The notes below the pieces were generated by a model. It was not told where the DNA came from. It was given only the letters and a program-made list of their open reading frames with translations, and made no database searches. Positions 29,158 to 57,773 of a DNA stretch of 64,000 nt are shown piece by piece. Positions within the stretch are counted from its first letter, which is position 1, and every line of letters starts with the position of its first letter. Origin of the DNA: Actinoplanes sp. SE50/110 (GTDB lineage Bacteria; Actinomycetota; Actinomycetes; Mycobacteriales; Micromonosporaceae); NCBI RefSeq assembly GCF_900119315.1, contig NZ_LT827010.1:4869001-4933000 (forward strand), given 5' to 3'. Both the position numbers and the translations under genes were made by a program.

Positions 29158-30279
29158 TCAGCGGTAGATGCTGGCGATCGCGCGGATGTCCGGGTGCGGG
29201 GTGGTCGAGGGACGGTCGGCGAGCAGGCCGGCGGCGCGGCGCCGCTGTTTGCGGGGAACGCCGCCGTTGATGCCGAGGTATTCCAGGGTGGGATGCCCGT
29301 CGGCGATCGCGTCGACCAGCAGCCGGGCGCCGCGGCCGCCGATCCCGGTCCGGCGCAGGTCGAGGCGGCGCAGCCGGGCGGTGGGCAGCGCGGCCGCGAA
29401 GGCGGCGGCGCCCTCGTCGCCGAGGTCGTTGGCGGTGGCGCCGAGGGCGCGCTCGGACGGTGGCCGGCTCAGGTCCAGAATCTGCCAGGCGGCGCAGTCG
29501 CGGGCCAGGGCCGCGGCGCCGGTCGCGGTGATCCCGTTGCCGCCGAGACCCAGGATTGCCGGTACGCCGTGAGCAGCCTCGCCGAGCGCGGCGGCGCCCC
29601 GGTCGCCCAGATGGTTGGCGGCCAGGTACAGCTCGTGCACGCCGGCCTCGTGGATCAGCCGGGCCAGCACGCCGACGGCGTCCGGGCCGAGTCCGTTGCC
29701 GCCGAGGAACAGCCGCTGCAGACGGGCGCCGCCGGCGACCAGGGCGTCGGTCAGCACGGTCAGGCCGGTCACGGTGAGCCCGGTGTTGACCAGATCGAGC
29801 GTACGCAGGATCGGGTTGCCGGCGAGCGCCGCCGCGAGCCGCGCGACGCCCTCGTCACCGACCGGATTGCGTTTGAGCCAGAGGGCGCGGACCGTGTCGT
29901 CGGCGGCCAGCCGCTCGGCGAGCACCGCGGCACCGTCCGGGCCGATCCGGTTGCAGCCCAGGTAGAGGGTTTCGATGCCGTGCCCGGGCCGCAGCGCGCC
30001 GGCGACCGCCTCGACGCCCTCGGTGCCCAGCGCGTTGGTGCCGAGCAGCAGGTGCCGTACGTGCGGGGAGCCGGCGGCCGCGGCGGCGATCCGGCCCACC
30101 TCGACCGGGCCGACGCCCTGCTTGCACAGGTCGAGGCGACCGTCCTGCCGGACCGCCCCGCGCGGGAAGACAGCCGGGCCGGCCGGGCCCTCGGCGAGCC
30201 AGCTGACCAACGGGTCGAAGTCGGCGGGTGGGGCGAGGCCGTCGTCCGGGTTCTGGATCGCCGGGCAGCGGATCGGCAT
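29158..30279 (-). CDS. leucine-rich-repeat protein (ribonuclease-inhibitor type)
   Basis: A 373-residue soluble LRR protein, last gene of a three-gene operon. About eight repeats of the RNase-inhibitor type are visible between residues 50 and 340, for example VRHLLLGTNALGTEGVEAVA, IETLYLGCNRIGPDGAAVLA, LRTLDLVNTGLTVTGLTVLT and VHELYLAANHLGDRGAAALG. No enzymatic or membrane segment is present, so it should be a binding protein in the cytoplasm. The ATG at 30279 lies two bases after the stop of the SDR gene. Confidence 0.9.
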   Translation of the reverse strand: MPIRCPAIQNPDDGLAPPADFDPLVSWLAEGPAGPAVFPRGAVRQDGRLDLCKQGVGPVEVGRIAAAAAGSPHVRHLLLGTNALGTEGVEAVAGALRPGHGIETLYLGCNRIGPDGAAVLAERLAADDTVRALWLKRNPVGDEGVARLAAALAGNPILRTLDLVNTGLTVTGLTVLTDALVAGGARLQRLFLGGNGLGPDAVGVLARLIHEAGVHELYLAANHLGDRGAAALGEAAHGVPAILGLGGNGITATGAAALARDCAAWQILDLSRPPSERALGATANDLGDEGAAAFAAALPTARLRRLDLRRTGIGGRGARLLVDAIADGHPTLEYLGINGGVPRKQRRRAAGLLADRPSTTPHPDIRAIASIYR

Positions 30280-30281
30280 GG

Positions 30282-31550
30282 TCACCAGGGCACGCTCCGA
30301 TAGTCCTTGAGGAACTTCCCGCTGATCGGCGCACCGCGGCCGGCCGCCACGACCGGATGGTAGACCCGTGCCGCGCCGTCGATGACGTCCAGCGGTGGCC
30401 GGAAACCGATGGCCCGCTGCTCCTGCTTGTGCGGGTGCGGCCGCTCGTCGGTGACCCAGCCGGTGTCCACCGCGTTCATCAGGATCCGCTCCCGGGCGTA
30501 GTCCGGCGCCGACGTCCGGACCAGCATGTTCAGTGACGCCTTGGCCATGTTGGTGTGCGGATGCCGGACCGTCTTGCCGGTCCGCGAGAAGCTGCCCTCC
30601 ATGGCGGACACCTGCACCACGTGCCGGTCCCGCGGCGGCCCGGCGGCCAGCAGCGGGCGCAGCCGGGAGGTGAGCAGGAACGGCGCGAACGCGTTGACCA
30701 CGTGCGCGGACAGCCACTCGTGCGGGCTGACCTCGCCGTCGCGCAGGACCCACGAGTTGACCGGGCGCAGGTCGAGCTGGAAACCGGTCTCGTCGACCCG
30801 CCCGGCCGGGAAGAACCGCTGGTCGAGAGCCTGGAGTTCGGGCGCGGTGCCGAGCGAACGGTAGTAGGCGGGCGGCCGGTACACGGTCTGCGCGGCGTTG
30901 TTGACCAGGATGTCGAGGTGGTCGAAACGCCGCCCGGCGAAGCGTACGAACTCCTGCAGCGCGTCGAGGTCGAGCAGGTCCAGGCCGTGCAGGTGCAGCC
31001 GGTCACCCCACTGGTCGAAGTCGGACAGGGCGGCGAACCGCTGGGCCGCGTCGTCGGGGAACCGGGTGGTGGCCACCACGGTGGCGCCGTCGCGCAGCAG
31101 CTTCAGCGCGGTGTGGAAGCCGATCTTCACCCGGCCGCCGGTGATGATCGCGGTCCGTCCGGTCAGGTCGGTGCGGGCGTGCCGCCAGTCCCGGTTCTCC
31201 GCCGCGCAGACCGGGCACATCTGGTGGTAGTCGGCGTCGACCTCGCGGTAGTCGCCCTTGCAGACGTAGCAGAGCCGCACCCGGCGCAGCACGCCCAGCG
31301 TCTCGGCCGGTGCGGCGGGTGCGACGGGCTCCGGGGACGGGATCTCGGTCCGGAACCGGCTCGCCCCGGCCAGCAGGGTCCGGTCGGCGTCCCGGGACTG
31401 CGCGGACCGCCGGGCCTTCGCCCGCTGCTTGATCCGGCGCGCCGCGGTGGTCACCGCACGCTCCAGCTCCAGCCGGGACGCCGGGTCCAGCTCCGGGTCG
31501 TCGAGCCGGGCCAGGGCAGCCACGGCGGCGTCGAGGTCCGCGCGGTCCAC
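30282..31550 (-). CDS. SDR oxidoreductase with N-terminal zinc ribbon and altered active site
   Basis: A 422-residue protein. A helical Arg/Ala-rich start (1-60) is followed by a zinc ribbon with Cys94, Cys97, Cys112 and Cys115. The SDR domain (about 130-400) has TGGRVKIG instead of TGxxxGxG at 137-144 and LVNNAAQTVYRPP. The usual YxxxK reads THxNMAK-like HTNMAKASLN, with Thr where Tyr is expected. Catalysis may differ or be lost. It starts at GTG one base after the ankyrin gene and is coupled to the LRR gene. Confidence 0.9.
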   Translation of the reverse strand: MDRADLDAAVAALARLDDPELDPASRLELERAVTTAARRIKQRAKARRSAQSRDADRTLLAGASRFRTEIPSPEPVAPAAPAETLGVLRRVRLCYVCKGDYREVDADYHQMCPVCAAENRDWRHARTDLTGRTAIITGGRVKIGFHTALKLLRDGATVVATTRFPDDAAQRFAALSDFDQWGDRLHLHGLDLLDLDALQEFVRFAGRRFDHLDILVNNAAQTVYRPPAYYRSLGTAPELQALDQRFFPAGRVDETGFQLDLRPVNSWVLRDGEVSPHEWLSAHVVNAFAPFLLTSRLRPLLAAGPPRDRHVVQVSAMEGSFSRTGKTVRHPHTNMAKASLNMLVRTSAPDYARERILMNAVDTGWVTDERPHPHKQEQRAIGFRPPLDVIDGAARVYHPVVAAGRGAPISGKFLKDYRSVPW

Positions 31551-31551
31551 G

Positions 31552-33099
31552 TCAGGACCCGACCCGCCGGACCTGGGCGGCGGTCGAACCGCGGCCGTCG
31601 AAGGCGTTCTCGTCGGCGCCGGCGGCGATCAGCGCGGCCATCGCCCCGGTGTCCGCCGACAGGGCGGCCACATGCAGCGGGGTGCGGCCGTCGTAGTCCC
31701 GGTCGGCGAGCGACAGGCCGGCGGCCAGCAGCACCGGCAGCACCCGCTCATGCTCGACGTTCGCGATGTAGTGCAGCAGCGTCCGGCCGTGCTGGTCGCG
31801 CAGCAACGGATCACAGCCGGCCGCCAGATCGGCCAGCACCGCGTCGGTGTCCCCGTGCACGATCCGCTCGAACACCCGCTGGCGCAGCCGGCGCACCTTC
31901 TTCGGGGTGCCGGCGCCGGCGGTGCGGAACCGGTCGACCGCGGCCGTGCACCCGTTCGGTGTCACCGGATGGTCGGGGTGCAGGATGCGCAGGCTCGCCC
32001 CGGCCGCCTCGACCGGATGCCACCGGCCGCCGCACAGCACCCGGAACGTCCGGCGTGGCCGGTGCTCGATCGGCTGCCAGTGCTGGACCCGGCCCGGGAA
32101 CAGCGCCTCGTGCACGAGCGGATGCAGCTGATCCGGGCCGATCATGCCCCAGCGCAGCAGCGCGGCGTCCCGGGGCGCGGCGACGCCGAACGCGGCCGGC
32201 CCGCCGCCCGGCTCACCGGCGACCCGGTCCGCCGGCTCGGCGCGGAACAGTCCCCCCGGGGCGGCGGTCAGCCGCACGTCGAGCCACTGCGGGGCGCGCA
32301 ACAGGCCGCCGGTGCGCTCCGGGTACCGTTCGATCAGCCGGCGGGCCTCGGCCGCGGCGACCGGCAGCCGATCCTGCAGACCGGCGAGCCGCTGCACGAT
32401 CCAGGCGTCGCGGTGCGGATCGGGCACGGCGATGCCGGCCGCGGCGTACCACTCCGTCCTGCGATCCTGATCTATCGGGCCGAGAAGGCGCTCGAACTCG
32501 CCGGCGCGATCGGTCCCGTCGGTCACGGTTCCCTGCGGGTACGCCGTGCCGTCCGCGAAGTGCCAGGGCAGACGTGCCGCCGAGGCCCCGTAGGCCCAGC
32601 GGCGCCCCTCGATCGCGTCCGCGTGCCAGGCCCAGGCCGGCAGATCCACCCAGACCCCGGACAGCTCGTGGACGTCGACCACCTCGAGGGTGACCCGCCG
32701 GGCGACCAGCCCGTCCCGCGGGAGCGTCGCGACCAGCACCGGAACCCGCGGACGCCGGCGGGCGAGAAAGCGGCGCTCGCGGAACGGCTCCGGACGGCTC
32801 GACAGCACCACCCGGGCCCGGGACGGCCACCGCCCCCAGGTGTCCACCGGCAGGTGGCGACGCAGCAGGTCAGGGGCCAGTCCGGCGAGATCGTCCTCGA
32901 TCGCCGCGGTCGCTGCGGCACCGAACCGGTCCCGCACCGCGGCCGGCTCGAAGCGCACGTCGACCATCGCCGCGGCGCACGCGGCCCGCCAGTCACCGGC
33001 CAGCCGCGCCGCGGTCGCCCGGGCGATCATGCCACCGGGCGACGCGTACGCCATCCGCCGCGCATAGTCGTCGCGGTCCCGCCGCCGTCCCAGATCCAC
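31552..33099 (-). CDS. large protein with C-terminal ankyrin repeats
   Basis: A 515-residue protein, first gene of the operon. The C-terminal 100 residues carry two clear ankyrin repeats (DQHGRTLLHYIANVEHERVL and DYDGRTPLHVAALSADTGAM) and a partial third (FDGRGSTAAQVRRVGS). The first 400 residues are Arg/Ala/Pro-rich with Trp-containing patches (LSGVWVDLPAWAWHADAI, EHRPRRTFRVLCGGRWHPVE) and match no domain I know. There is no signal peptide. It begins 22 bases after the end of the tRNA-Cys-like gene on the same strand. Confidence 0.85.
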   Translation of the reverse strand: MDLGRRRDRDDYARRMAYASPGGMIARATAARLAGDWRAACAAAMVDVRFEPAAVRDRFGAAATAAIEDDLAGLAPDLLRRHLPVDTWGRWPSRARVVLSSRPEPFRERRFLARRRPRVPVLVATLPRDGLVARRVTLEVVDVHELSGVWVDLPAWAWHADAIEGRRWAYGASAARLPWHFADGTAYPQGTVTDGTDRAGEFERLLGPIDQDRRTEWYAAAGIAVPDPHRDAWIVQRLAGLQDRLPVAAAEARRLIERYPERTGGLLRAPQWLDVRLTAAPGGLFRAEPADRVAGEPGGGPAAFGVAAPRDAALLRWGMIGPDQLHPLVHEALFPGRVQHWQPIEHRPRRTFRVLCGGRWHPVEAAGASLRILHPDHPVTPNGCTAAVDRFRTAGAGTPKKVRRLRQRVFERIVHGDTDAVLADLAAGCDPLLRDQHGRTLLHYIANVEHERVLPVLLAAGLSLADRDYDGRTPLHVAALSADTGAMAALIAAGADENAFDGRGSTAAQVRRVGS

Positions 33100-33121: not shown

Positions 33122-33197
33122 TGGCGGCCGGCCGGATTCGAACCGGCGTCCTTCGCCTGTGCAGGGCGATGCGACGACCTCTGCGCTACGGCACGCC
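33122..33197 (-). tRNA. tRNA-Cys(GCA)-like, eight-pair acceptor stem with a bulge
   Basis: The cloverleaf can be drawn by eye. Acceptor strands are GGCG-U-GCCG and CGGCCGCC: eight pairs with one bulged U. U8-A9, a 3-bp D stem (GCG/CGC), a 5-bp anticodon stem (TCGCC/GGCGA) with loop CTGCACA (anticodon GCA at 33162-33160) and the T arm GCCGG-TTCGAAT-CCGGC follow. Position 37 is C, unusual for tRNA. N74 is A and no CCA is encoded. It shares its variable loop and T arm with two neighbouring tRNA genes. Confidence 0.75.
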
Positions 33198-33225
33198 AAG
33201 GGGGGAGTGTAGCGATCGAGGGCGG

Positions 33226-33301
33226 CGGAGCCGAGCCGGATTCGAACCGGCGTCCCCACCGATGCGAACGGTGTGCGTCGACCAGCTGCGCTACCGGCCC
33301 C
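33226..33301 (-). tRNA. tRNA-Ala(CGC)-like, eight-pair acceptor stem
   Basis: Acceptor strands GGGGCCGG and TCGGCTCC give eight pairs with a G-U at the third pair (the alanine identity feature) and a G-U at the base. The D stem is GCG/CGC and the anticodon stem CACCG/CGGTG, with loop TTCGCAT (anticodon CGC), the same loop as ordinary bacterial tRNA-Ala(CGC). The T arm GCCGG-TTCGAAT-CCGGC is identical to its neighbours. The base after the stem is G, not A. Confidence 0.8.
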
Positions 33302-33319
33302 GCCGCGCCCGCAGCCTAC

Positions 33320-33640
33320 CTACCTCGGGGCGACCTTGACGCCACGGGACCGGGCGGAGTCGTGCCACTCGATCCGGGTCAGCGTGGTGCTGCGCGGCAC
33401 GTCGAAGACGACCTTCGCACTGACCCGGTTGCCGGGGTTGATGTCGTTGAGGAACGTGTCCGCGTGGTCGTCGGCGTCCATTTCGGCGGCCCCGTCGTTC
33501 TGGAACTCGGTGCCGGCGGAATCCAGCGCCTTCTGGTTGCTGCCGGAGAACATCTGCGCCCGATCGCCGACATTGCGCACCGACAGGCTGACCACGCAGA
33601 ACCTGCCCCGGGCGGTCTTGTTCAGATACGCCCCGCCCAG
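33320..33640 (-). pseudogene. truncated DUF4352 protein, C-terminal two thirds
   Basis: The minus-strand frame ending at 33320 encodes FCVVSLSVRNVGDRAQMFSG, DTFLNDINPGNRVSAKVVFD and TRIEWHDSARSRGVKV, the classic end of a DUF4352 domain ('FLNDINPGN', 'VVFDVP', 'ELHDS..S.GV'). The expected N-terminal lipoprotein signal and first strands are missing: upstream the frame runs into the tRNA-Asp-like gene. It is flanked by tRNA genes on both sides, 18 bases from the tRNA-Ala-like gene. Confidence 0.75.
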
Positions 33641-33662
33641 AGGACGAGTACGCCGAGGGCGA

Positions 33663-33737
33663 TGGGACCGAGCCGGATTCGAACCGGCGTCCTCCGCCTT
33701 GACAGGGCGACGTGCCGACCTCTGCACTACCGATCCC
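33663..33737 (-). tRNA. tRNA-Asp(GTC)-like, eight-pair acceptor stem
   Basis: Acceptor strands GGGATCGG and TCGGTCCC give eight pairs (two G-U), followed by A. The D stem is a clean GTGC/GCAC, the anticodon stem TCGCC/GGCGG with loop CTGTCAA (anticodon GTC), and the T arm matches the other two genes exactly. Counting from U8-A9, an ordinary tRNA would have seven acceptor pairs. The extra pair could instead be viewed as a -1:73 pair as in tRNA-His. Confidence 0.82.
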
Positions 33738-33767
33738 ACCGCGCCGGGAGCGTATCAGCCCGACGGC

Positions 33768-34688
33768 CTACCGCCACCAGTCGGTTTCGCGGATCGGGTG
33801 CAGGGTGAGGCCCAGCGTCCCCGTGAACCAGCGAGCCAGCTGGGTCTCCATGACGAGGTGTTCGCTGGCCGCGTGGGACACCCCGATCAAGGTCATGCCG
33901 GTCGTGGCGGCGAAGTTCTGCACGTCGGCGAACTTGCGGCGGCCGTAGTCACCCTCGATGCGCACATGCAGCTCGCCGGTCAGGTAGGCCTGAGCACCGA
34001 GCCTCTCCGCCTCGGCCATCTGATCGACGTGGTCGCCGACGCCACCGACGACGGCGATGCGGGTGATGTCGTCGCGTGACCGGCCTTCCACTTCGACGAG
34101 GTCCAGGCCGAACAGTTCGCGGGCACGGCGCACGAGCAGGTCGGTCGTCGTGGGCGCGATGTCCGCGACATGCCCTGCGTAACCCTCGTCGTACGGCCAG
34201 AAATAGTCCACCGCGGTGCCGCCCAGGCCCTCCACGATCGCCGCGGCGGTACCGACCCGCACCGAGGTGTCCATCGGCGCGTGGCAGGAGTACATCGACA
34301 GTTGACGCTCGACGATGGCCAGCCGGTGCGCGTCGGCGATCGGCACGAAACCCTCCGCCCAGGTGTCGTGTTCGGGCGAGCCGTTCCGTATGTCGATGGG
34401 ATGGTGAGTGATCAACAAGTCACCGGTCCGCGCGACGGAGAGCCAGTCGTCCAGCACCTGCGCCGACGGCAGGCAGGCGCCGTGGACGGCACCCACCGAG
34501 GGATGCCCGCGGTGCATCAACCCGTTGAATCGTTGCGCGAAACGCGGCTCGACGAACGCCCGCCAGTCGACTCCGGCCTCGTCGTACACCCGCGGGACAT
34601 GCCGGCTCATCGCCGCGTCGGGGGCCGCCGTGTCAAGGTCGAAGAGCGCGTCGAGGGCGGCACACACGAGATCGAGCTTCGTCACCAT
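33768..34688 (-). CDS. Nif3-like dinuclear metal-centre protein
   Basis: A 306-residue protein starting at the ATG at 34688. Nif3/DUF34 features are DLLITHHPIDIRNGSP (metal-binding HH), QLSMYSCHAPMDTSV, ITRIAVVGGVGDHVDQMAEA and the C-terminal MTLIGVSHAASEHLVMETQL. Members bind two metals and often act as GTP cyclohydrolase I type 2-like hydrolases. The protein has an N-terminal extension of about 90 residues before the HH motif. It stands alone 30 bases upstream of the tRNA-Asp-like gene. Confidence 0.85.
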   Translation of the reverse strand: MVTKLDLVCAALDALFDLDTAAPDAAMSRHVPRVYDEAGVDWRAFVEPRFAQRFNGLMHRGHPSVGAVHGACLPSAQVLDDWLSVARTGDLLITHHPIDIRNGSPEHDTWAEGFVPIADAHRLAIVERQLSMYSCHAPMDTSVRVGTAAAIVEGLGGTAVDYFWPYDEGYAGHVADIAPTTTDLLVRRARELFGLDLVEVEGRSRDDITRIAVVGGVGDHVDQMAEAERLGAQAYLTGELHVRIEGDYGRRKFADVQNFAATTGMTLIGVSHAASEHLVMETQLARWFTGTLGLTLHPIRETDWWR

Positions 34689-34755
34689 CGACGCACTGTA
34701 GAGGTTGCCGTCCTGTTCGTCCCGGCAGATATCGCCCGAAGGGGCCGGCCGCCGA

Positions 34756-35346
34756 TCAGTCCCAGAAGCACTCCAGGTGGTCGGAGGTCTCGATGGCGTC
34801 CGCGTCGGCGCAGAACCTGGTCGCGTCGGCGCGCAGCGCGTCGTCGATCCGCGGCGCCCAGACGGTCTCCAGGGACACCCGGTAGTCGTCCCGGTCCGGG
34901 CTGACCGCGTAACCCTGCGCGTGGGTGCCCGGGTGGTCGCAGACGAACCGGAAGATGTCCCAGGCCGACGGGGCGGCGTTCTGCCGGTCGTCCGGGTCCA
35001 GCCACTTCCCGTCGAGGAGCGCGGCCAGCCCGGCGGCGTCCAGCGGCCCGAAGTACCCGGCGCCGCCGGTGAAGGTGGCGCCGTTGCCGAGCAGGTCGAC
35101 GAAGGGGAGCAGCCGGTCACGGCCGGCGGCGTCCGGGTTGAACGGGAACGGGTCGCGCGGGGCGGGCCGCGCGGCGTCGCAGAGGGCCGGCCGGACCGGA
35201 GCGCCGGTGCTGACGGCGACAGCGGCCACCGTGGCCGTGCCGGCCCCGGGGCCGGCACGGCGGGACGAAGCGGTGACGGCGACGGCGGCCAGTCCACAGG
35301 CGACCGCGACACCGGCGGAGACGGCAAGACTCATCGGGCGGCGCAC
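34756..35346 (-). CDS. secreted protein of unknown function
   Basis: A 196-residue exported protein. A GTG at 35346 gives MRRPMSLAVSAGVAVACGLA as signal; an ATG four codons in is an equally good start. The mature part is rich in Asp and aromatic residues (LLPFVDLLGNGATFTGGAGY, SAWDIFRFVCDHPGTHAQGY) and ends LECFWD. Three cysteines may form a disulfide. I recognise no family. The gap to the MazF-like gene (35347-35504) shows no antitoxin. Confidence 0.7.
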   Translation of the reverse strand: MRRPMSLAVSAGVAVACGLAAVAVTASSRRAGPGAGTATVAAVAVSTGAPVRPALCDAARPAPRDPFPFNPDAAGRDRLLPFVDLLGNGATFTGGAGYFGPLDAAGLAALLDGKWLDPDDRQNAAPSAWDIFRFVCDHPGTHAQGYAVSPDRDDYRVSLETVWAPRIDDALRADATRFCADADAIETSDHLECFWD

Positions 35347-35992: not shown

Positions 35993-36096
35993 ACCGCCAT
36001 CTCCCACTTTAACGTATATCGCATGGGTGGGCTTGCCGCAAGACCCCGTCACCGGCGCACACTGGCTGCCGCAATCGTTGAATGGGGGCCGGGAAG

Positions 36097-37308
36097 ATGC
36101 GTGTGGTGTTGAGCACCTGGGGTTCGCGGGGCGATGTCGAACCACTGGCCGCGCTGGCGTTCCAGTTGCGGGCACAGGGGGCCGAGGTGCAGGTCTGCGC
36201 GCCGCCGGATGAGGAGTTCACGACGCTGCTGAACGGGGTGGGCGCCGAGCACGTGCCGCTGGGGCCGGCGGTGGGTTCGGTGGTGGCCGGCAGCCGGCCG
36301 CCGTCGGCGCAGGACGCGTTCCGGCTGGCGGCGGATCTGGTCGCGGCCCGGTTCGAGACGCTGGGCCGGGTGGCGAAGGGGGCCGAGGCGCTGCTGGCGA
36401 CCGGGTTGATGCCGTCCGGTGTCCGCTCGGTCGCCGACCACCTGGGCGTCCGGTATGCGATGGCCTGCTTCCACGTGTACGGGCTGCCGTCGCGGCACCG
36501 CCGGCCGGGCACCCGGCCCGGGGTGCAGTCGGCGGCGCAGGAGACCGATCCGCGGGTGCTGTGGAAGGAGGACGCGGACCGGATCAACGCCCTGTACGCG
36601 GAGCCGGAGAACCGGCACCGGGCGGCGCTCGGGATGCCGCCGGTCGAGGACATCCGGTCGTACGTCTTCACCGACCGGCCGTTGCTGGCCGCCGACCCGG
36701 TGCTGTGCCCGTGGGCGGACACCACCGACCTGGACGTGGTGCAGACCGGCGCGTGGATCCGGCCGGACGACCGTCCGCTGCCGGCCGAGCTGACCGCGTT
36801 CCTGGATGCCGGCGAGCCGCCGGTGTACGTGGGTTTCGGCAGCATCGCCTCGTACCTGCCGGCCGACATCGGCCGGGTCGCCGTCGAGGCGATCCGCGCG
36901 CGGGGCCGCCGGGTGCTGATCAACCGGGGCTGGGCCGGCCTGTCCGCGCTCGACGACGGCGCCGACTGCCTGGTGGTGGGCGAGGTGAACCAGCAGGCGC
37001 TGTTCCCCCGGGTGGCCGCGATCGTGCACCACGGCGGGGCCGGGACGACGACCGCGGCGAGCCGGTCGGGGACGCCGCAGGTGGTGGTGCCGCAGATCGC
37101 CGACCAGACGATGTCGGCGGAGCGGATCGCCGAGCTCGGCATCGGGGTGGCACACGAGGGCCGCTCCCCCACGGTCGGGTCGCTGTCCGCGGCGCTGGCC
37201 ACGGCACTGGGTGCGGATGTCCGGGCACGGGCCGCCGAGGTGGGCGGCACGATCCGCACCGACGGCGCGGCGGTCGCCGCGGGGATGCTGCTGAGCGGCG
37301 AGTTCTGA
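36097..37308 (+). CDS. GT1-family glycosyltransferase (UGT-like)
   Basis: A 403-residue soluble glycosyltransferase of the GT-B fold. The N-terminus is MRVVLSTWGSRGDVEPLAAL, typical of natural-product and sterol glycosyltransferases. The donor-binding C-terminal motif is VHHGGAGTTTAASRSGTPQV followed by VVPQIADQTMSAERI. The ATG at 36097 is preferred over one at 36082 because it matches the family start. The acceptor is unknown. It is followed 65 bp later by a GH13 gene. Confidence 0.9.
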   Translation: MRVVLSTWGSRGDVEPLAALAFQLRAQGAEVQVCAPPDEEFTTLLNGVGAEHVPLGPAVGSVVAGSRPPSAQDAFRLAADLVAARFETLGRVAKGAEALLATGLMPSGVRSVADHLGVRYAMACFHVYGLPSRHRRPGTRPGVQSAAQETDPRVLWKEDADRINALYAEPENRHRAALGMPPVEDIRSYVFTDRPLLAADPVLCPWADTTDLDVVQTGAWIRPDDRPLPAELTAFLDAGEPPVYVGFGSIASYLPADIGRVAVEAIRARGRRVLINRGWAGLSALDDGADCLVVGEVNQQALFPRVAAIVHHGGAGTTTAASRSGTPQVVVPQIADQTMSAERIAELGIGVAHEGRSPTVGSLSAALATALGADVRARAAEVGGTIRTDGAAVAAGMLLSGEF

Positions 37309-37373
37309 GATGTCGTCCGGTGGCCCGGCGGGTACGTTGTCCCTCGGGCCAACCGGATCGGAGACGCTTCACG

Positions 37374-38660
37374 ATGAACGACTGGGTCGAGCACGTGATC
37401 TGGTGGCACGCGCATCCCCTCACGTTCCTGGGGGCTGAGCGGGCGGCGCTGCCACCGGATGCCGCGCCGGTGCCGCGGCTGCGGCGTTTCGCGCCGTGGC
37501 TGGACTATCTGGTGGAGCTGGGCTGCAACGGTCTGGCGTTGGGGCCGGTCTTCGCGGCGGAGACGCACGGCTACGACACGGTCGACCACTACCGGGTCGA
37601 TCCGCGGTTGGGCACCACGGACGATCTGCGGTGGCTGCTCGACGAGTGTCGTCGGCGCGGGATCCGGGTGCTGTTCGACGGCGTGTTCAATCACGTGGGG
37701 CGCGGTTTCGGCCCGTTCCGGGACGTGCTCGACCGGGGGCGCGATTCGGCGTACGCCAACTGGTTTCGTCTTTCCTACAACGACGACGGCGGGTTCGACC
37801 ATGCCGATTTCGAGGGTCACCACCATCTGGTCGCCCTCAATCACGATGAGCCGGCCGTCGTCGACTACGTCGCCGGGGTGATGCGGCACTGGCGGGAGTT
37901 CGGCGCGGACGGCTGGCGTCTCGACGCGGCCTATGCGGTGCCGCTGCCGTTCTGGCGGGCGACCGCCGGGAGCATCGACGGCGGCTGGTTCGTGGGTGAG
38001 GTGATCCACGGCGACTATCCGGCTTTCGTGCGTGACGGCGGCCTCGATTCCGTGACGCAGTACGAGCTGTGGAAGGCGATCCGGTCCAGTCTGAACGACC
38101 TGAACTTCTTCGAGTTGGCCTGGGCGTTGGAGCGGCACGACGCGTTCGGCGCCGATTTCCCCCCGCTGACCTTCGTCGGCAATCACGACGTCACCCGGAT
38201 CGCCAGCGCCCTGACCGAGCCGCGCCATCTCGGCCTGGCCCTGGCCGTCCTGTTCACCGTCGGCGGCGTGCCCAGCGTCTACGCCGGCGACGAGCAGGCC
38301 TTCACCGGCGTCAAACGCGACATCGAGTTCGGCGACGACGAGATCCGCCCGGCCTTCCCCGCGACCCCGGCGGATCTGGCCCCGTTCGGCGAGCCCACCT
38401 TCCACCTGCACCAGCAGCTGATCAGCCTGCGCCGCCGATTCCCGTGGCTGCACCGCGCCACCACGAAACCTTTGCACCTCACCAACAAACAACTGGCGTA
38501 CGAGGTGTCCGCCGGCCCCGACCGCCTCATCGTGCTGCTGAACGCCGCCGACCACGGCCACGACTTCCCCTTGGACCTCGGCCCCGCCCGCGTCGTCGAG
38601 TCCTCCGGCGGCACCGGCACCCTCGTCCCCGGCCCCGGCTGGTCGATCCTGCGGGGCTGA
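37374..38660 (+). CDS. alpha-amylase family (GH13) enzyme
   Basis: A 428-residue intracellular GH13 enzyme with no signal peptide. All catalytic acids are visible: nucleophile Asp184 (GWRLDAAYA), acid/base Glu209 (WFVGEVIHG) and Asp272 (FVGNHDVTR). The beta-3 motif VLFDGVFNHVG is also present. The C-terminal beta domain is short (about 345-428). Start at the ATG at 37374, with GGAG ten bases upstream. The exact substrate (maltodextrin, trehalose or glucosylated acceptor) is not determined. Confidence 0.92.
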   Translation: MNDWVEHVIWWHAHPLTFLGAERAALPPDAAPVPRLRRFAPWLDYLVELGCNGLALGPVFAAETHGYDTVDHYRVDPRLGTTDDLRWLLDECRRRGIRVLFDGVFNHVGRGFGPFRDVLDRGRDSAYANWFRLSYNDDGGFDHADFEGHHHLVALNHDEPAVVDYVAGVMRHWREFGADGWRLDAAYAVPLPFWRATAGSIDGGWFVGEVIHGDYPAFVRDGGLDSVTQYELWKAIRSSLNDLNFFELAWALERHDAFGADFPPLTFVGNHDVTRIASALTEPRHLGLALAVLFTVGGVPSVYAGDEQAFTGVKRDIEFGDDEIRPAFPATPADLAPFGEPTFHLHQQLISLRRRFPWLHRATTKPLHLTNKQLAYEVSAGPDRLIVLLNAADHGHDFPLDLGPARVVESSGGTGTLVPGPGWSILRG

Positions 38661-39800: not shown

Positions 39801-39869
39801 CCCCGGCGATCACCGCCACGCCGTGCCTGCCGGACGCTGTCGCGGCGCGGGGGGGGCTATAACAAGATC

Positions 39870-40880
39870 ATGGGTACCGATGAGGAAGTGATCGTCGAGG
39901 TCCGGGAAGGCCTCGGGCACCTGGTCCTGAATCGGCCGCGGGCGATCAACGCGCTCACCGCCGGCATGGTGGCGATCATGCGCCGGGCTCTGGCCGGGTG
40001 GGCGGCGTCGGACACCGTGCGGGCCGTGCTGATCACGGGAGCGGGTGAGCGCGGGCTCTGCGCCGGCGGTGACATCCGGGCGATCCACGCGGACGCGGTG
40101 TCCGGGGGCAGCGGGTCGATCCGGTTCTGGGCTGACGAGTACGAGTTGAACGCGACGATCGCGGAGTATCCGAAGCCGGTCGTGGCGCTGATGGACGGTC
40201 TCGTGATGGGTGGCGGGATCGGTGTCTCGGCGCACGCGTCGGTGCGGGTGGTGACGGAGCGGTCCCGGCTGGCGATGCCCGAGGTGGGCATCGGCATGCA
40301 CCCGGACGTCGGCGGCTCCTGGCTGCTCTCCCGGGCGCCCGGCGAGCTGGGCACGCATCTGGCGCTGACCGGCTCCGCGGTGGGGGCGGCGGACGGGATC
40401 GCGGCCGGGCTCGCCGACTTCTTCGTCCCGTCCGAGCGCCTGCCCGCGCTGGTCGCGGCGCTGGAACAGGGGCAGGGGGTGCGGGCCTTCACGGCCGAGC
40501 CGCCGCCGGGTGAGTTCGCCACGGCCCGGGAGTGGATCGACGTCTGCTACCGGGGGGACTCGGTGATCGAGATCGTGGACCGGCTGGCCCGGCACCCGGC
40601 CCCGGGCGCGCAGGCGGCCGCCAAGGAGATCGGCACCCGCTCCCCCACCGCCCTGACGATCACCCTGCGTTCGCTGCGGACGGCAGCGCGCCTGCCCGAT
40701 CTGCGCGCCGCGCTGGGGCAGGAGCTGCGGCTGTCGGCGGCCATGCTGCGGCTGCCGGACCTGGCGGAGGGGATCCGGGCGCAGATCATCGACAAGGACC
40801 GCAATCCGCGCTGGCGGCCGTCGTCCCTCGCCGAGGTGCGGCCGGAGACCGTCGACGAGGTGTTCGAAGCAACCCGTTAG
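39870..40880 (+). CDS. 3-hydroxyisobutyryl-CoA hydrolase-like enzyme (crotonase superfamily)
   Basis: A 336-residue protein, longer than simple enoyl-CoA hydratases and matching HIBCH (about 340-385). Features are LVLNRPRAINALTAGMVAIM, the oxyanion segment GAGERGLCAGGDIRAIH, LVMGGGIGVSAHASVRVVTE and the HIBCH-type C-terminus RAQIIDKDRNPRWRP. The catalytic acid lies in the MPEVGIGMHPDVGGSW segment. It acts in valine breakdown, releasing 3-hydroxyisobutyrate from its CoA ester. Confidence 0.9.
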   Translation: MGTDEEVIVEVREGLGHLVLNRPRAINALTAGMVAIMRRALAGWAASDTVRAVLITGAGERGLCAGGDIRAIHADAVSGGSGSIRFWADEYELNATIAEYPKPVVALMDGLVMGGGIGVSAHASVRVVTERSRLAMPEVGIGMHPDVGGSWLLSRAPGELGTHLALTGSAVGAADGIAAGLADFFVPSERLPALVAALEQGQGVRAFTAEPPPGEFATAREWIDVCYRGDSVIEIVDRLARHPAPGAQAAAKEIGTRSPTALTITLRSLRTAARLPDLRAALGQELRLSAAMLRLPDLAEGIRAQIIDKDRNPRWRPSSLAEVRPETVDEVFEATR

Positions 40881-40930
40881 CAACCGGAGGCGACCGCTTC
40901 CACACTCAGCCGCACCGACCGTTGTCTTCC

Positions 40931-42442
40931 ATGGCCACCAAGAAGCACGCGCGCCGGGCCGCTCTCACCGTCGCCGCCGCCACCGCCACCGCTGTCAGCC
41001 TCGCCTACCCGATCGCCGCCGGCGCGGCGCCGGGTGTCCCGGTCAGCGTTCTGGCCGACACCCCGGGGACCGCGAAGCCGGTGACCAAGGCGCCGACCGC
41101 GACCGCGGTCACCCCGCCGAGCGGCACCACCGCGGGCGGCACCACGGTCACGGTCACCGGTTCCGGGTTCTCGTCGCTGGACCTGACGAACCCGGCCGCG
41201 GTGAAGTTCGGTGACCTCAACGCGGCCTCGTTCGCCGTCGTGTCGGACACCCGGCTGACCGCGGTCACCCCGGCCGGGACGAACGGCGCGGTCAAGGTGA
41301 CCGTCACCAACACGGTGGGCAGCAGCAGCGGGACGGTGAGCTTCGGGTTCCGGGCGCCGCTGGGTGCCCGGTTCGAGGCGGTGACCGGGGCGAAGGGCGG
41401 CACCGTCGTCCCGGTCACCGTGACCGGCGGCACCGTGGGCGCCACCGCCGCGGCCTTCACCACCGAGAAGGTGACCGCGAAGGTCGGGGACGCCACCGCG
41501 ACGGTGGCCTGGACCGACGAGGCGCACGTCAAGGTGACCGTGCCGGCCGGCACGAAGTTCGGCGCGATGAAGCTGACGCTGACCCACGACGGGGTGGCCG
41601 GCACCCCGTCCGAGTCGACGATCCGCTACGCGCCGCTGCTGAGCGGGGTGTTGCCGGCCAAGGTGTCCACCGCGGGCGGCGAGACGGTGACGATCACCGG
41701 GAACGGCTTCACCGACGTGGCCAGCGACGACCCGGCATCGGTCACCTTCGGCGGCAGGAACGCGACCAGCTTCACGGTCAAGTCGGCCACCCAGATCACC
41801 GCGGTGGTGCCGGAGGGCGCGAACGGGGCGGCCCCGGTCGTGGTGAAGAGCGCGGGTGGCTCGGTGAGCGGGACCGTCACGTACCGCACGCCTCTGGGCC
41901 TGGAAGTTCCCGCCGGCGCGGTGGCGAAGGCCTCCGGCGGCACGGTCACGCTGACGGTGACCGGCGGGACGGTCGGCGCGACCCCGAAGGAGTTCGGCAC
42001 GCAGGCGATCAGCGCCACGGTCGGCACCTCGAAGGTCGTCCCGGTCTGGGTGGACGCCACCCACGTGAAGGTGCCGATGCCGGCCTCGGCCGCGGCGACG
42101 GCCCCGGTGACCCTGCTGCACGACGGGGTGCCGGGCAAGCCGGTGACGGTGAGTTACGCCCCGGTCGTGGTGAACCTGTCGGCGACCACCGACACGCTGG
42201 CCGGCGGCACCAAGGTCACCGTGAAGATCGCCGGCGGGGAGCTGGGCGGCGCGACCGGCTTCACGTTCGGCGGTAAGGAGGCGTCCTGCACCAGGCAGGG
42301 CACCGGCACCTTCGTCACCTACCTGTGCGTGACGCCGCCGGCGACCACGGCCGGCCCGGTCTGGGTGTCGTTCACCGCCAGCACCGGCACCGCCAGCCGG
42401 TTCACCCCGGCCGCCGTCTTCAACTACATCGACCTGGACTGA
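40931..42442 (+). CDS. secreted IPT/TIG repeat protein
   Basis: A 503-residue exported protein. Signal peptide KKHARRAALTVAAATATAVS to about residue 35. Several IPT/TIG immunoglobulin-like domains follow, at about 58-140, 235-318 and 410-500 (VTPPSGTTAGGTTVTVTGSG, LPAKVSTAGGETVTITGNGF, ATTDTLAGGTKVTVKIAGGE), separated by two related Gly/Thr/Val-rich modules (VTVTGGTVGATAAAF, LTVTGGTVGATPKEF). No enzymatic domain. A cell-surface or adhesion role is inferred. Its end overlaps the PadR gene by 19 bases. Confidence 0.85.
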   Translation: MATKKHARRAALTVAAATATAVSLAYPIAAGAAPGVPVSVLADTPGTAKPVTKAPTATAVTPPSGTTAGGTTVTVTGSGFSSLDLTNPAAVKFGDLNAASFAVVSDTRLTAVTPAGTNGAVKVTVTNTVGSSSGTVSFGFRAPLGARFEAVTGAKGGTVVPVTVTGGTVGATAAAFTTEKVTAKVGDATATVAWTDEAHVKVTVPAGTKFGAMKLTLTHDGVAGTPSESTIRYAPLLSGVLPAKVSTAGGETVTITGNGFTDVASDDPASVTFGGRNATSFTVKSATQITAVVPEGANGAAPVVVKSAGGSVSGTVTYRTPLGLEVPAGAVAKASGGTVTLTVTGGTVGATPKEFGTQAISATVGTSKVVPVWVDATHVKVPMPASAAATAPVTLLHDGVPGKPVTVSYAPVVVNLSATTDTLAGGTKVTVKIAGGELGGATGFTFGGKEASCTRQGTGTFVTYLCVTPPATTAGPVWVSFTASTGTASRFTPAAVFNYIDLD

Positions 42443-57553: not shown

Positions 57554-57559
57554 CGCTCT

Positions 57560-57735
57560 GTCATCTGTGCCTGAGAGGTTCACCGCGAAGGCGGCTTGCA
57601 CCGTGGGCGCAGCCCGCGACGGGGCTGACTTTCCAGAGTCGCCTGACCGCTGCGGTACCGGGTGCCTGAGAGATTCTGAGGGAGAATTTGCTCCTTCGGC
57701 GCCCAGGTGACGGACCCTGGGACTCTCCCGCGGCG
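57560..57735 (-). ncRNA. tandem glycine riboswitch
   Basis: On the minus strand two glycine aptamers lie in series. Aptamer 1 (about 57733-57661) has GCGGGAGAGTCCC, GCCGAAGGAGCAA and CTCTCAGGCACC. Aptamer 2 (about 57645-57567) has ACTCTGGAAAG, CACGGTGCAAGCC and CCTCTCAGGCAC. The two CTCTCAGGCA(C) signatures and the GGAGCAA/GTGCAAG loops are the hallmark. It lies 40 bases before gcvT and should switch the operon on when glycine is high. Confidence 0.93.
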
Positions 57736-57773
57736 GCTGTGACGGCGAAAGTCTTCACTTGTCAGCGCCGACC

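Follow-up and report, generated by a model that had tools for sequence, protein, structure and literature searches.

Messages that begin with a tRNA-like fold are known from the yjdF riboswitch, a tRNA-Lys-like leader, and both yjdF and tRNAs grafted onto the 5' end of a message raise translation, the gain for cis-tRNA leaders in vitro being 2- to 6.3-fold (PMC9142559). In tRNA-Sec, the 8-bp acceptor lowers EF-Tu binding 100-fold (PMC7609411), and the rtc operon responds to tRNA fragments (PMC7790460). Here we analyse three tRNA-like genes on the minus strand of Actinoplanes sp. SE50/110, located in a stretch of 64,000 nucleotides (contig NZ_LT827010.1, positions 4,869,001 to 4,933,000; hereafter the window) upstream of genes for an ankyrin protein, a short-chain dehydrogenase/reductase (SDR)-fold protein and a leucine-rich repeat (LRR) protein. 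The reading that we prefer, and hold tentatively, is that they are members of a family of tRNA-fold 5' mRNA leaders. The computational analysis revealed a tRNA fold with covariation, an acceptor helix of more than 8 bp, a private -10 box, a recurrent spacing to the start codon and linkage to three protein families over several phyla; from these features we infer the function.

The three RNAs and their -10 boxes, the latter found in a scan for the family motif TANNNT, are:

33659 to 33742, minus strand: Asp-like tRNA-like RNA with a 13-bp acceptor helix (5' strand 33742-33730, 3' strand 33671-33659) and the anticodon loop CTGTCAA
33749 to 33754, minus strand: -10 box TACGCT of the Asp-like RNA
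33222 to 33306, minus strand: Ala-like tRNA-like RNA with a 13-bp acceptor helix and the anticodon loop TTCGCAT
33313 to 33318, minus strand: -10 box TAGGCT of the Ala-like RNA
33122 to 33198, minus strand: Cys-like tRNA-like RNA with a 9-bp acceptor helix plus one bulged U and the anticodon loop CTGCACA
33206 to 33211, minus strand: -10 box TACACT of the Cys-like RNA

The initial annotation had described three minus-strand tRNA-like genes with three different anticodons at this place, which is borne out by both ARAGORN (Cys(GCA) at 33123-33192, Ala(CGC) at 33224-33301 and Asp(GTC) at 33663-33737, all on the minus strand) and the Rfam tRNA model (42.3, 48.5 and 60.3 bits for the Cys-, Ala- and Asp-like RNAs). 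Sequence and alignment likewise confirm that the T arm (GCCGG TTCGAAT CCGGC) is identical in all three and that their D and variable regions are near-identical. With our family model R1 the same RNAs score 87.4, 79.0 and 89.6 bits, respectively, and in the 9.24-Mb host chromosome, which has 94 matches to the tRNA model, only these three sites are better than E 1e-17. The comparison with canonical host tRNAs that had been proposed showed four Asp(GTC), two Ala(CGC) and three Cys(GCA) ordinary tRNAs elsewhere, so the odd three are not the sole copies.

Relatives were collected from 40 loci around RNA relatives of the same genus and SDR relatives of the same family, one of them being the host's own SDR paralogue. 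A pattern scan of these loci and the window gave 60 matches, of which 58, having at least six acceptor pairs, were kept and two were dropped; 52 distinct elements out of the 58 were aligned, and a second set of 33 elements was pooled with the first 58 to give 91. Allowing one bulge or mismatch, the acceptor has at least 9 bp in 85 of the 91 family members, compared with 3 of 98 ordinary host tRNAs (6 of these 98 scored 0-1 pairs, probably because of a misplaced T loop). The helix is uninterrupted over at least 9 bp in 69 of the 91, and acceptors of 10-12 bp were found in L108, L111, L112, L113, L115 and L117. The eight-pair acceptor noticed earlier, like the bulged U in the Cys-like gene, is correct, yet it underestimates the real pairing, which extends over 13, 13 and 9 bp (the last with one bulge) in the Asp-, Ala- and Cys-like RNAs. 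Nor is the eighth pair a mark of oddity: exactly 8 uninterrupted pairs occur in 26 of the 98 ordinary host tRNAs, so that eight pairs alone are weak evidence and were rejected as a diagnostic feature, whereas 9 or more are rare there. The mark of the family is the long helix, not the eighth pair.

Among the 52 aligned elements, 84.8% of the cells of the 13-pair acceptor and cloverleaf pair, and the covariation score is 0.418, as against 0.170 after shuffling and at most 0.109 with the partners slid. Pairing at -1:73 is seen in 39 and at -2:74 in 42 of the 52, with 15 and 9 two-sided changes, respectively; acceptor pairs ten, eleven, twelve and thirteen form in 34, 29, 28 and 17 elements, and the D-stem pair 13:22 in 2 only. 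The residues of a tRNA elbow (A14, G18, G19, T54, T55, C56, A58) are kept in 50-52 of the 52 on a tRNA cloverleaf, and tRNA body and elbow are near-invariant among the relatives. The T stem has 5 bp, the variable loop 5 nt and the acceptor mostly 9-13 bp. A CCA in register was found in 6 of the 58 elements (7 bp plus N) or 2 of the 58 (8 bp plus N), and the family does not have the 7-bp acceptor with a free N73-CCA end that characterizes elongator tRNAs. The earlier suggestion of a specialised set, in which a single tRNA body bears different anticodons and departs from the ordinary tRNAs of translation, is supported by this structure, which can be read directly from the sequence.

A TANNNT motif lies 22-28 nt before U8 in 50 of the 58 elements (mean 2.5 and maximum 9 in shuffles) and 22-26 nt before U8 in 31 of the 33 elements of the second set (mean 1.6, maximum 6), its commonest start being 23 nt before U8; seven of the eight first-set elements without the box are second members of close pairs. 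Given the usual distance between a -10 box and the transcription start, transcription is predicted to start at the base of the long helix. The distance from the end of the T stem to the first start codon with a Shine-Dalgarno (SD)-like motif has a median of 35 nt for SDR (n = 24), 43 nt for LRR (n = 11) and 43 nt for ankyrin genes (n = 25), some of the longer spacings belonging to first members of close pairs or to cases in which the motif search overshot the true start, as in the window's ankyrin gene. The gap between acceptor strand and start codon is often about 25-35 nt. Where it is as short as this, a further promoter or a terminator would hardly fit in, so that the message probably begins with the RNA. 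The elements thus have the predicted layout of a tRNA-like mRNA leader, with a tRNA fold at the start of the transcript, before the SD motif and the start codon.

The coding sequences that accompany the three RNAs in the window are:

33320 to 33658, minus strand: DUF4352 frame between the Asp-like and Ala-like RNAs (Pfam DUF4352 on the open reading frame 33320-33739)
31552 to 33099, minus strand: ankyrin protein of 515 aa with C-terminal ankyrin repeats (Pfam Ank_2)
30282 to 31550, minus strand: SDR-fold protein of 422 aa with an N-terminal CxxC..CxxC zinc ribbon
29158 to 30285, minus strand: LRR protein, overlapping the SDR stop codon (Pfam LRR_6 on the open reading frame 29158-30753)

Along the window the order is Asp-like RNA, DUF4352 frame, Ala-like RNA, Cys-like RNA, ankyrin, SDR and LRR gene, with 22 nt between the Cys-like RNA and the ankyrin gene and 573 nt between the Asp-like RNA and the same gene. 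The DUF4352 frame, seemingly without an N-terminus and a singleton with no homologue among the relative loci, is probably a remnant. With curated gene starts, an SDR (43), ankyrin (24) or LRR (16) gene begins at most 250 nt downstream of 83 of the 121 elements in a wider set, which holds at least one record twice (L115 and L145) and from which one L240 match, an ordinary tRNA, was left out. The same linkage was seen for 50 of 85 elements in the RNA-selected part (59 of 85 by a looser match) and for 30 of 52 without 20 hand-picked loci, several of which had been chosen because elements cluster there; the strict gene count misses some divergent ankyrin genes (L235, L236, L241, L249). Ankyrin homologues repeatedly sit 3' of a tRNA-like RNA, and an LRR gene lies 3' of the SDR gene also in L151, L160 (Cyanobacteriota), L213 (Armatimonadota) and L154. 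Some clusters also carry MoxR and DUF2201/VWA genes; in L233 one RNA each precedes an LRR-ankyrin unit, a short protein resembling a fragment of the ankyrin family, an ankyrin gene and an ankyrin-MoxR-DUF2201/VWA unit. NIF3, DUF4352 and an 850-aa protein were rejected as parts of the system, having no homologue beside the RNAs of other loci.

The model of the window's ankyrin protein (predicted local distance difference test, pLDDT, 87.2) matches mostly ankyrin/DARPin folds among the 50 of 973 PDB matches listed, none of which covers its N-terminal ~400 aa. The LRR proteins of L151 and L160 show, in their N-terminal region, a weak Pfam match to the SpoU substrate-binding (RNA-binding) domain, with E values of 1.5e-5 and 1.7e-6, respectively.

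The model of the SDR protein (pLDDT 91.9) has SDR/FabG-like folds as the 50 PDB matches listed. Thr replaces the tyrosine of YxxxK in the window's protein (HPHTNMAK), and a Lys stands in the dinucleotide motif (TGGRxKIG). Among 41 aligned SDRs the zinc-ribbon cysteines, H330, P331, H332, T333, K337 and the Lys of TG-x-R-x-K are invariant, and the catalytic Ser is mostly kept, with Thr in some. The catalytic Ser-Tyr-Lys set with YxxxK is thus incomplete (Tyr changed to Thr, Lys kept), and the protein may bind rather than reduce. In human mitochondrial RNase P, an SDR protein is a tRNA-binding subunit. In a tree of 114 SDRs, including near-copies and some rows fetched through the RNA (one duplicate and two SDRs shorter than 380 aa were dropped), the label 'tRNA-like RNA in locus' needs 8 changes, compared with 36 when shuffled. 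An ARAGORN tRNA lies at most 700 nt 5' on the same strand in 28 of the 37 SDR-selected genes outside the paralogue and deep clades, in 1 of 55 genes of the paralogue clade (an ordinary tRNA-Leu) and in none of the 9 of the deep clade; the clades were drawn after the labels had been seen, L167 was placed by hand and the loci are the best-scoring matches, not all. The paralogue clade holds the genome's second SDR, L120.

Linked examples among the actinobacteria come from Catellatospora, Herbidospora, Actinomadura, Kibdelosporangium, Kutzneria and Streptomyces, and outside Actinomycetota from the cyanobacterium UBA8803, Tychonema, Parabeggiatoa, SAR324, an Armatimonadota genome, the unplaced bacterium PMG_196 and a Deinococcus plasmid. 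Cyanobacteriota, Deinococcota, Armatimonadota, SAR324 and Pseudomonadota have single linked examples, each phylum being represented by one or two genomes, and relatives in Nostoc, Thiomargarita, Aureispira and Chitinophaga lack an RNA of this kind upstream. Outside Actinomycetota the acceptor has 6 to 9 bp (more if a mismatch is allowed), which makes the 9-13 bp helix mainly a feature of actinobacteria. In the genus, between 1 and 6 copies were found in each of 28 genomes out of 67. The family model matched 15 of 296 genomes in a class sample and 14 of 296 in a phylum sample; 12 of the latter are in families new to the search, and the 8 of these 12 that were inspected look by eye like ordinary tRNA-Pro with CCA, R1 not being specific at 70-76 bits.

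The initial annotation had suggested that the set might serve a mobile element, which viral contig and phage record searches do not support. Four plasmid records have an SDR relative and two a weak RNA relative. Viral contigs yielded no exact match to the pattern GTAGCGCAGAGGTCGWCGCR, the SDR partner has no match in phage records at E 1e-10, and the Asp-like RNA matched 21 phage records, of which the 10 listed are annotated as tRNA-Met/tRNA-Asp or unannotated; on these grounds a phage or plasmid origin was rejected.

Based on these observations, we propose that RNA polymerase would start at the foot of the over-long acceptor stem and that the first ~80-90 nt of the transcript would fold as a tRNA, with D arm, T arm, elbow and usually an anticodon arm. 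Rather than ending freely, the 3' side of this fold would lead into the SD motif and the start of an SDR/zinc-ribbon, LRR or ankyrin coding sequence. Such a fold in the mRNA might raise or license translation of the operon, like the cis-tRNA leaders in vitro, and the output might depend on a tRNA-acting agent, such as an anticodon nuclease or the operon's own elbow-binding protein. Since the 8-bp acceptor of tRNA-Sec weakens EF-Tu binding, the longer stem should bar these RNAs from the ribosome cycle; the long helix would exclude them from both charging and EF-Tu. In the window, the Ala- and Cys-like leaders would head one Ank-SDR-LRR operon, and the Asp-like leader a decayed gene in front of it. 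The RNAs probably control the downstream genes or sense tRNA attack, rather than serve protein synthesis. The initial annotation missed three features that would make the odd tRNAs part of a family of operon leaders: the full extent of the helix, promoters of their own and the repeated occurrence before SDR/LRR/ankyrin genes.

Several observations weigh against such leaders. When seven elements were folded alone, the full cloverleaf was the minimum free energy structure of the Asp-like one only, the z-scores ranged from -0.16 to -2.69, and imposing the tRNA fold on elements with their flanks raises the energy by an average of 7 kcal/mol; it is therefore covariation, not energy, that supports the fold. 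By the strict count 38 of the 121 elements have no SDR, LRR or ankyrin start within 250 nt (28 by the looser match), including Trp-like ones in genomes of family f20. Of the 37 SDR genes in the linked part, nine have no RNA upstream; the SDR rows for which ARAGORN placed no tRNA there are L101, L102, L109, L114, L119, L148, L149, L152 and L192; L119 has a weak family-model match (41 bits), and L109 and L114 have elements elsewhere in the locus. In L089, L091, L095 and L098 a SUKH-ankyrin gene (C26) has the RNA at its 3' end or shortly beyond it, and close pairs of RNAs are odd for a leader. Pairing between the loop and the downstream sequence is at chance level (6.37 versus 6.30 nt), and attenuation by such pairing was therefore rejected. 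The predicted accessibility of the SD motif differs weakly among the free state (0.40), the tRNA fold (0.54) and the 3' half (0.33; 35 elements, uncontrolled).

The anticodon arm behaves differently from the rest of the body. There are 62 distinct arms, 47 of them canonical (5 bp, 7 nt), and in 14 of these 47 the loop is identical to one of the genome's 68 ordinary loops (8.3 expected; 18 of 2000 permutations reach 14). U33 is present in 40 of the 47 canonical arms and in 59 of the 68 ordinary loops, R37 in 37 of the 47 and in 67 of the 68. Between close pairs, the change per site is 0.161 in the loop, 0.082 in the acceptor, 0.071 in the anticodon stem, 0.047 in the T arm and 0.031 in the D arm (62 non-independent pairs; 8 of the 58 elements, with other than 58-nt bodies, left out); L083 and L085 differ by one change inside the loop and none outside it, and L096 and L097 by two and none. 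On the other hand, the identical arm CCTTGGCATCGAGCAGG occurs in 8 of 16 LRR-led elements, and CCTTGACTGCAAGCTGG, or an arm one change from it, in 11 of 44 SDR-led ones, neither being a proper 5-bp/7-nt arm. Arms are more alike within gene types than between them (difference 0.65 nt, reached in 0 of 300 shuffles; relatedness uncorrected, looser gene labels). Some subfamilies therefore vary in the anticodon arm, whereas others keep it fixed. The changing loops would be accounted for if they were bait for anticodon nucleases, in cis or in trans, and equally by drift of an unused loop. Drift would not, however, explain the fixed arms of the LRR- and SDR-led classes, which look like protein-binding sites.

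It is possible, though we consider it doubtful, that the RNAs act in trans as bait or scaffold. A mimic cut from the message, or made alone, would be bound by the SDR, LRR or ankyrin protein; it would be the target of tRNA-cutting toxins or phages, with the anticodon arm as exchangeable bait and the proteins as guards. Loops that change on a constant body, as in L083/L085 and L096/L097, the excess of ordinary host loops among the canonical arms and the patchy presence within the genus are in line with this, and orphan elements and RNAs placed 3' of SUKH-ankyrin genes keep a trans role alive. However, many of the RNAs are marked as message 5' ends by the short distance that separates them from the SD motif and start codon and by a -10 box at the base of the helix, faster change of the loop is also predicted by drift, R37 is less regular than in ordinary tRNAs, and several SDR- and LRR-led arms are non-canonical yet conserved. 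Moreover, among the eight proteins scanned with PADLOC, SDR, LRR and VWA gave no match, the ankyrin proteins matched PDC-M72A over the repeats, and MoxR weakly matched RtcR-type AAA models. We regard as unlikely a tRNA-integrity switch, in which mimics would head SDR-LRR-ankyrin(-MoxR-VWA) units, their varied anticodon arms would lure tRNA-cutting toxins or phage enzymes, and damage to the mimic, acting in cis or read by the pseudo-SDR, would change expression and trigger a response. If true, an immune or stress system spanning several phyla would detect attacks on tRNA by means of decoys in its own messages.

That the tRNA-like RNA is often directly before a coding sequence would also suit mere punctuation, in which RNase P and RNase Z would excise it and thereby set the 5' end of the message. 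This is improbable, as the predicted start leaves almost no 5' leader to cut off and the paired helix extends to -2:74 and beyond. A complete elbow, U33 in most canonical arms and the 8-bp acceptors that occur in tRNA-Sec according to PMC7609411 might speak for specialised translation tRNAs or amino-acid donors with 8/5 acceptors. It is very improbable that the RNAs are either: the helix reaches at least 9 bp in nearly all members, the host already owns Asp, Ala and Cys tRNAs, and no tRNA-using ligase was found among the neighbour proteins scanned. The use as amino-acid donors that had been suggested earlier is not supported, the 3' end being buried in the long helix and a CCA in register being rare. 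Least probable of all, and barely credible, are remnants of tRNA genes left by integration or by decay of a tRNA array; the genome does have two tRNA arrays with many divergent tRNAs, but covariation contradicts decay, and neither the conserved -10 box nor the gene linkage fits it.

Some further features of the family, the host and the window are worth recording. Trp-type loops (CTCCAAA, CTCCAGA, CTCCAAC) are found in L126, L131, L132, L135, L138, L245, L234 (at 12385) and L098 (at 8800); none of these elements has an SDR, LRR or ankyrin start close downstream, and by eye the arm is identical or almost identical to that of ordinary tRNA-Trp. A genus locus with the SUKH-ankyrin gene also has an acyl-CoA-dehydrogenase-like gene (named by eye). 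In the host chromosome (C1), the arrays at 6399144-6403517 (L001) and 6210123-6211002 (L002) contain 31 and 10 ARAGORN tRNAs, with many isotypes duplicated and divergent; tRNA arrays have been described in Mycobacterium (PMC5966550). Two Val-Cys-Gly tRNA clusters with the same three sequences lie about 40 kb apart, at 7671800-7672400 (L008) and 7711300-7712000 (L009). On the minus strand of the window, positions 33768-35327 encode a 519-aa protein with a NIF3/DUF34 domain in its C-terminal part only, tandem glycine riboswitch aptamers (Rfam 60.1 and 41.0 bits) occupy 57556-57740, and the long frames 36009-38561, 39810-40883 and 40877-42121 have no Pfam or NCBIfam match at E 0.01.

The predicted leaders would define a class of operons in which each message opens with an entire tRNA, and would tie three little-known protein families into one system: a Tyr-less SDR with a zinc ribbon, an LRR protein and an ankyrin protein with an unmatched region of ~400 aa. 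As tRNA finders label these RNAs tRNAs, a structured regulatory or bait RNA family can hide in tRNA lists. Two ideas become testable, i.e. that tRNA folds serve as mRNA leaders beyond yjdF and that tRNA mimics are displayed to sense tRNA-targeting attack.

In the open literature we found no description of SDR-, LRR- or ankyrin-linked tRNA-like RNAs; the family may already be partly described in print. Burroughs and Aravind (2016) reportedly noted a novel tRNA-like RNA in a Band-7-associated RNA-repair neighbourhood, its partners being said to be Band-7/SPFH proteins and RNA ligases. These partners differ from SDR, LRR and ankyrin proteins, and the RNA noted there could be a member of our family or a separate one. 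Bacterial Y RNAs, together with Ro60/Rsr, and the RNA-repair operon that senses broken tRNAs resemble our loci in that a tRNA-like RNA lies beside partner genes, but no TROVE, RtcB or RtcA match was found among the proteins scanned from the window and its relatives, which comprise part of the neighbours. With allo-tRNAs, selC* tRNA-Cys and tRNA-Sec the family shares an acceptor longer than 7 bp and one body with many anticodons. Those RNAs, however, have 8/4, 9/3, 8/5 or 9/4 arms and a longer variable arm, whereas here the arms are mostly 9-13/5 with a 5-nt variable loop, the combined 12-13 bp of acceptor plus T domain typical of tRNA-Sec and allo-tRNAs is not seen, and the 3' end continues into mRNA. 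The yjdF riboswitch, as described in PMC9142559, has the same position: its tRNA fold opens a bacterial message and stands immediately ahead of the SD motif. Its Rfam model gives no match at the gathering threshold in the window, where only RF00005 and RF00504 reach it, and the two leaders differ in design: here U8A9 joins the acceptor to the D stem in place of the purine-rich J1/2, the acceptor is long, and the genes that follow encode SDR, LRR and ankyrin proteins.
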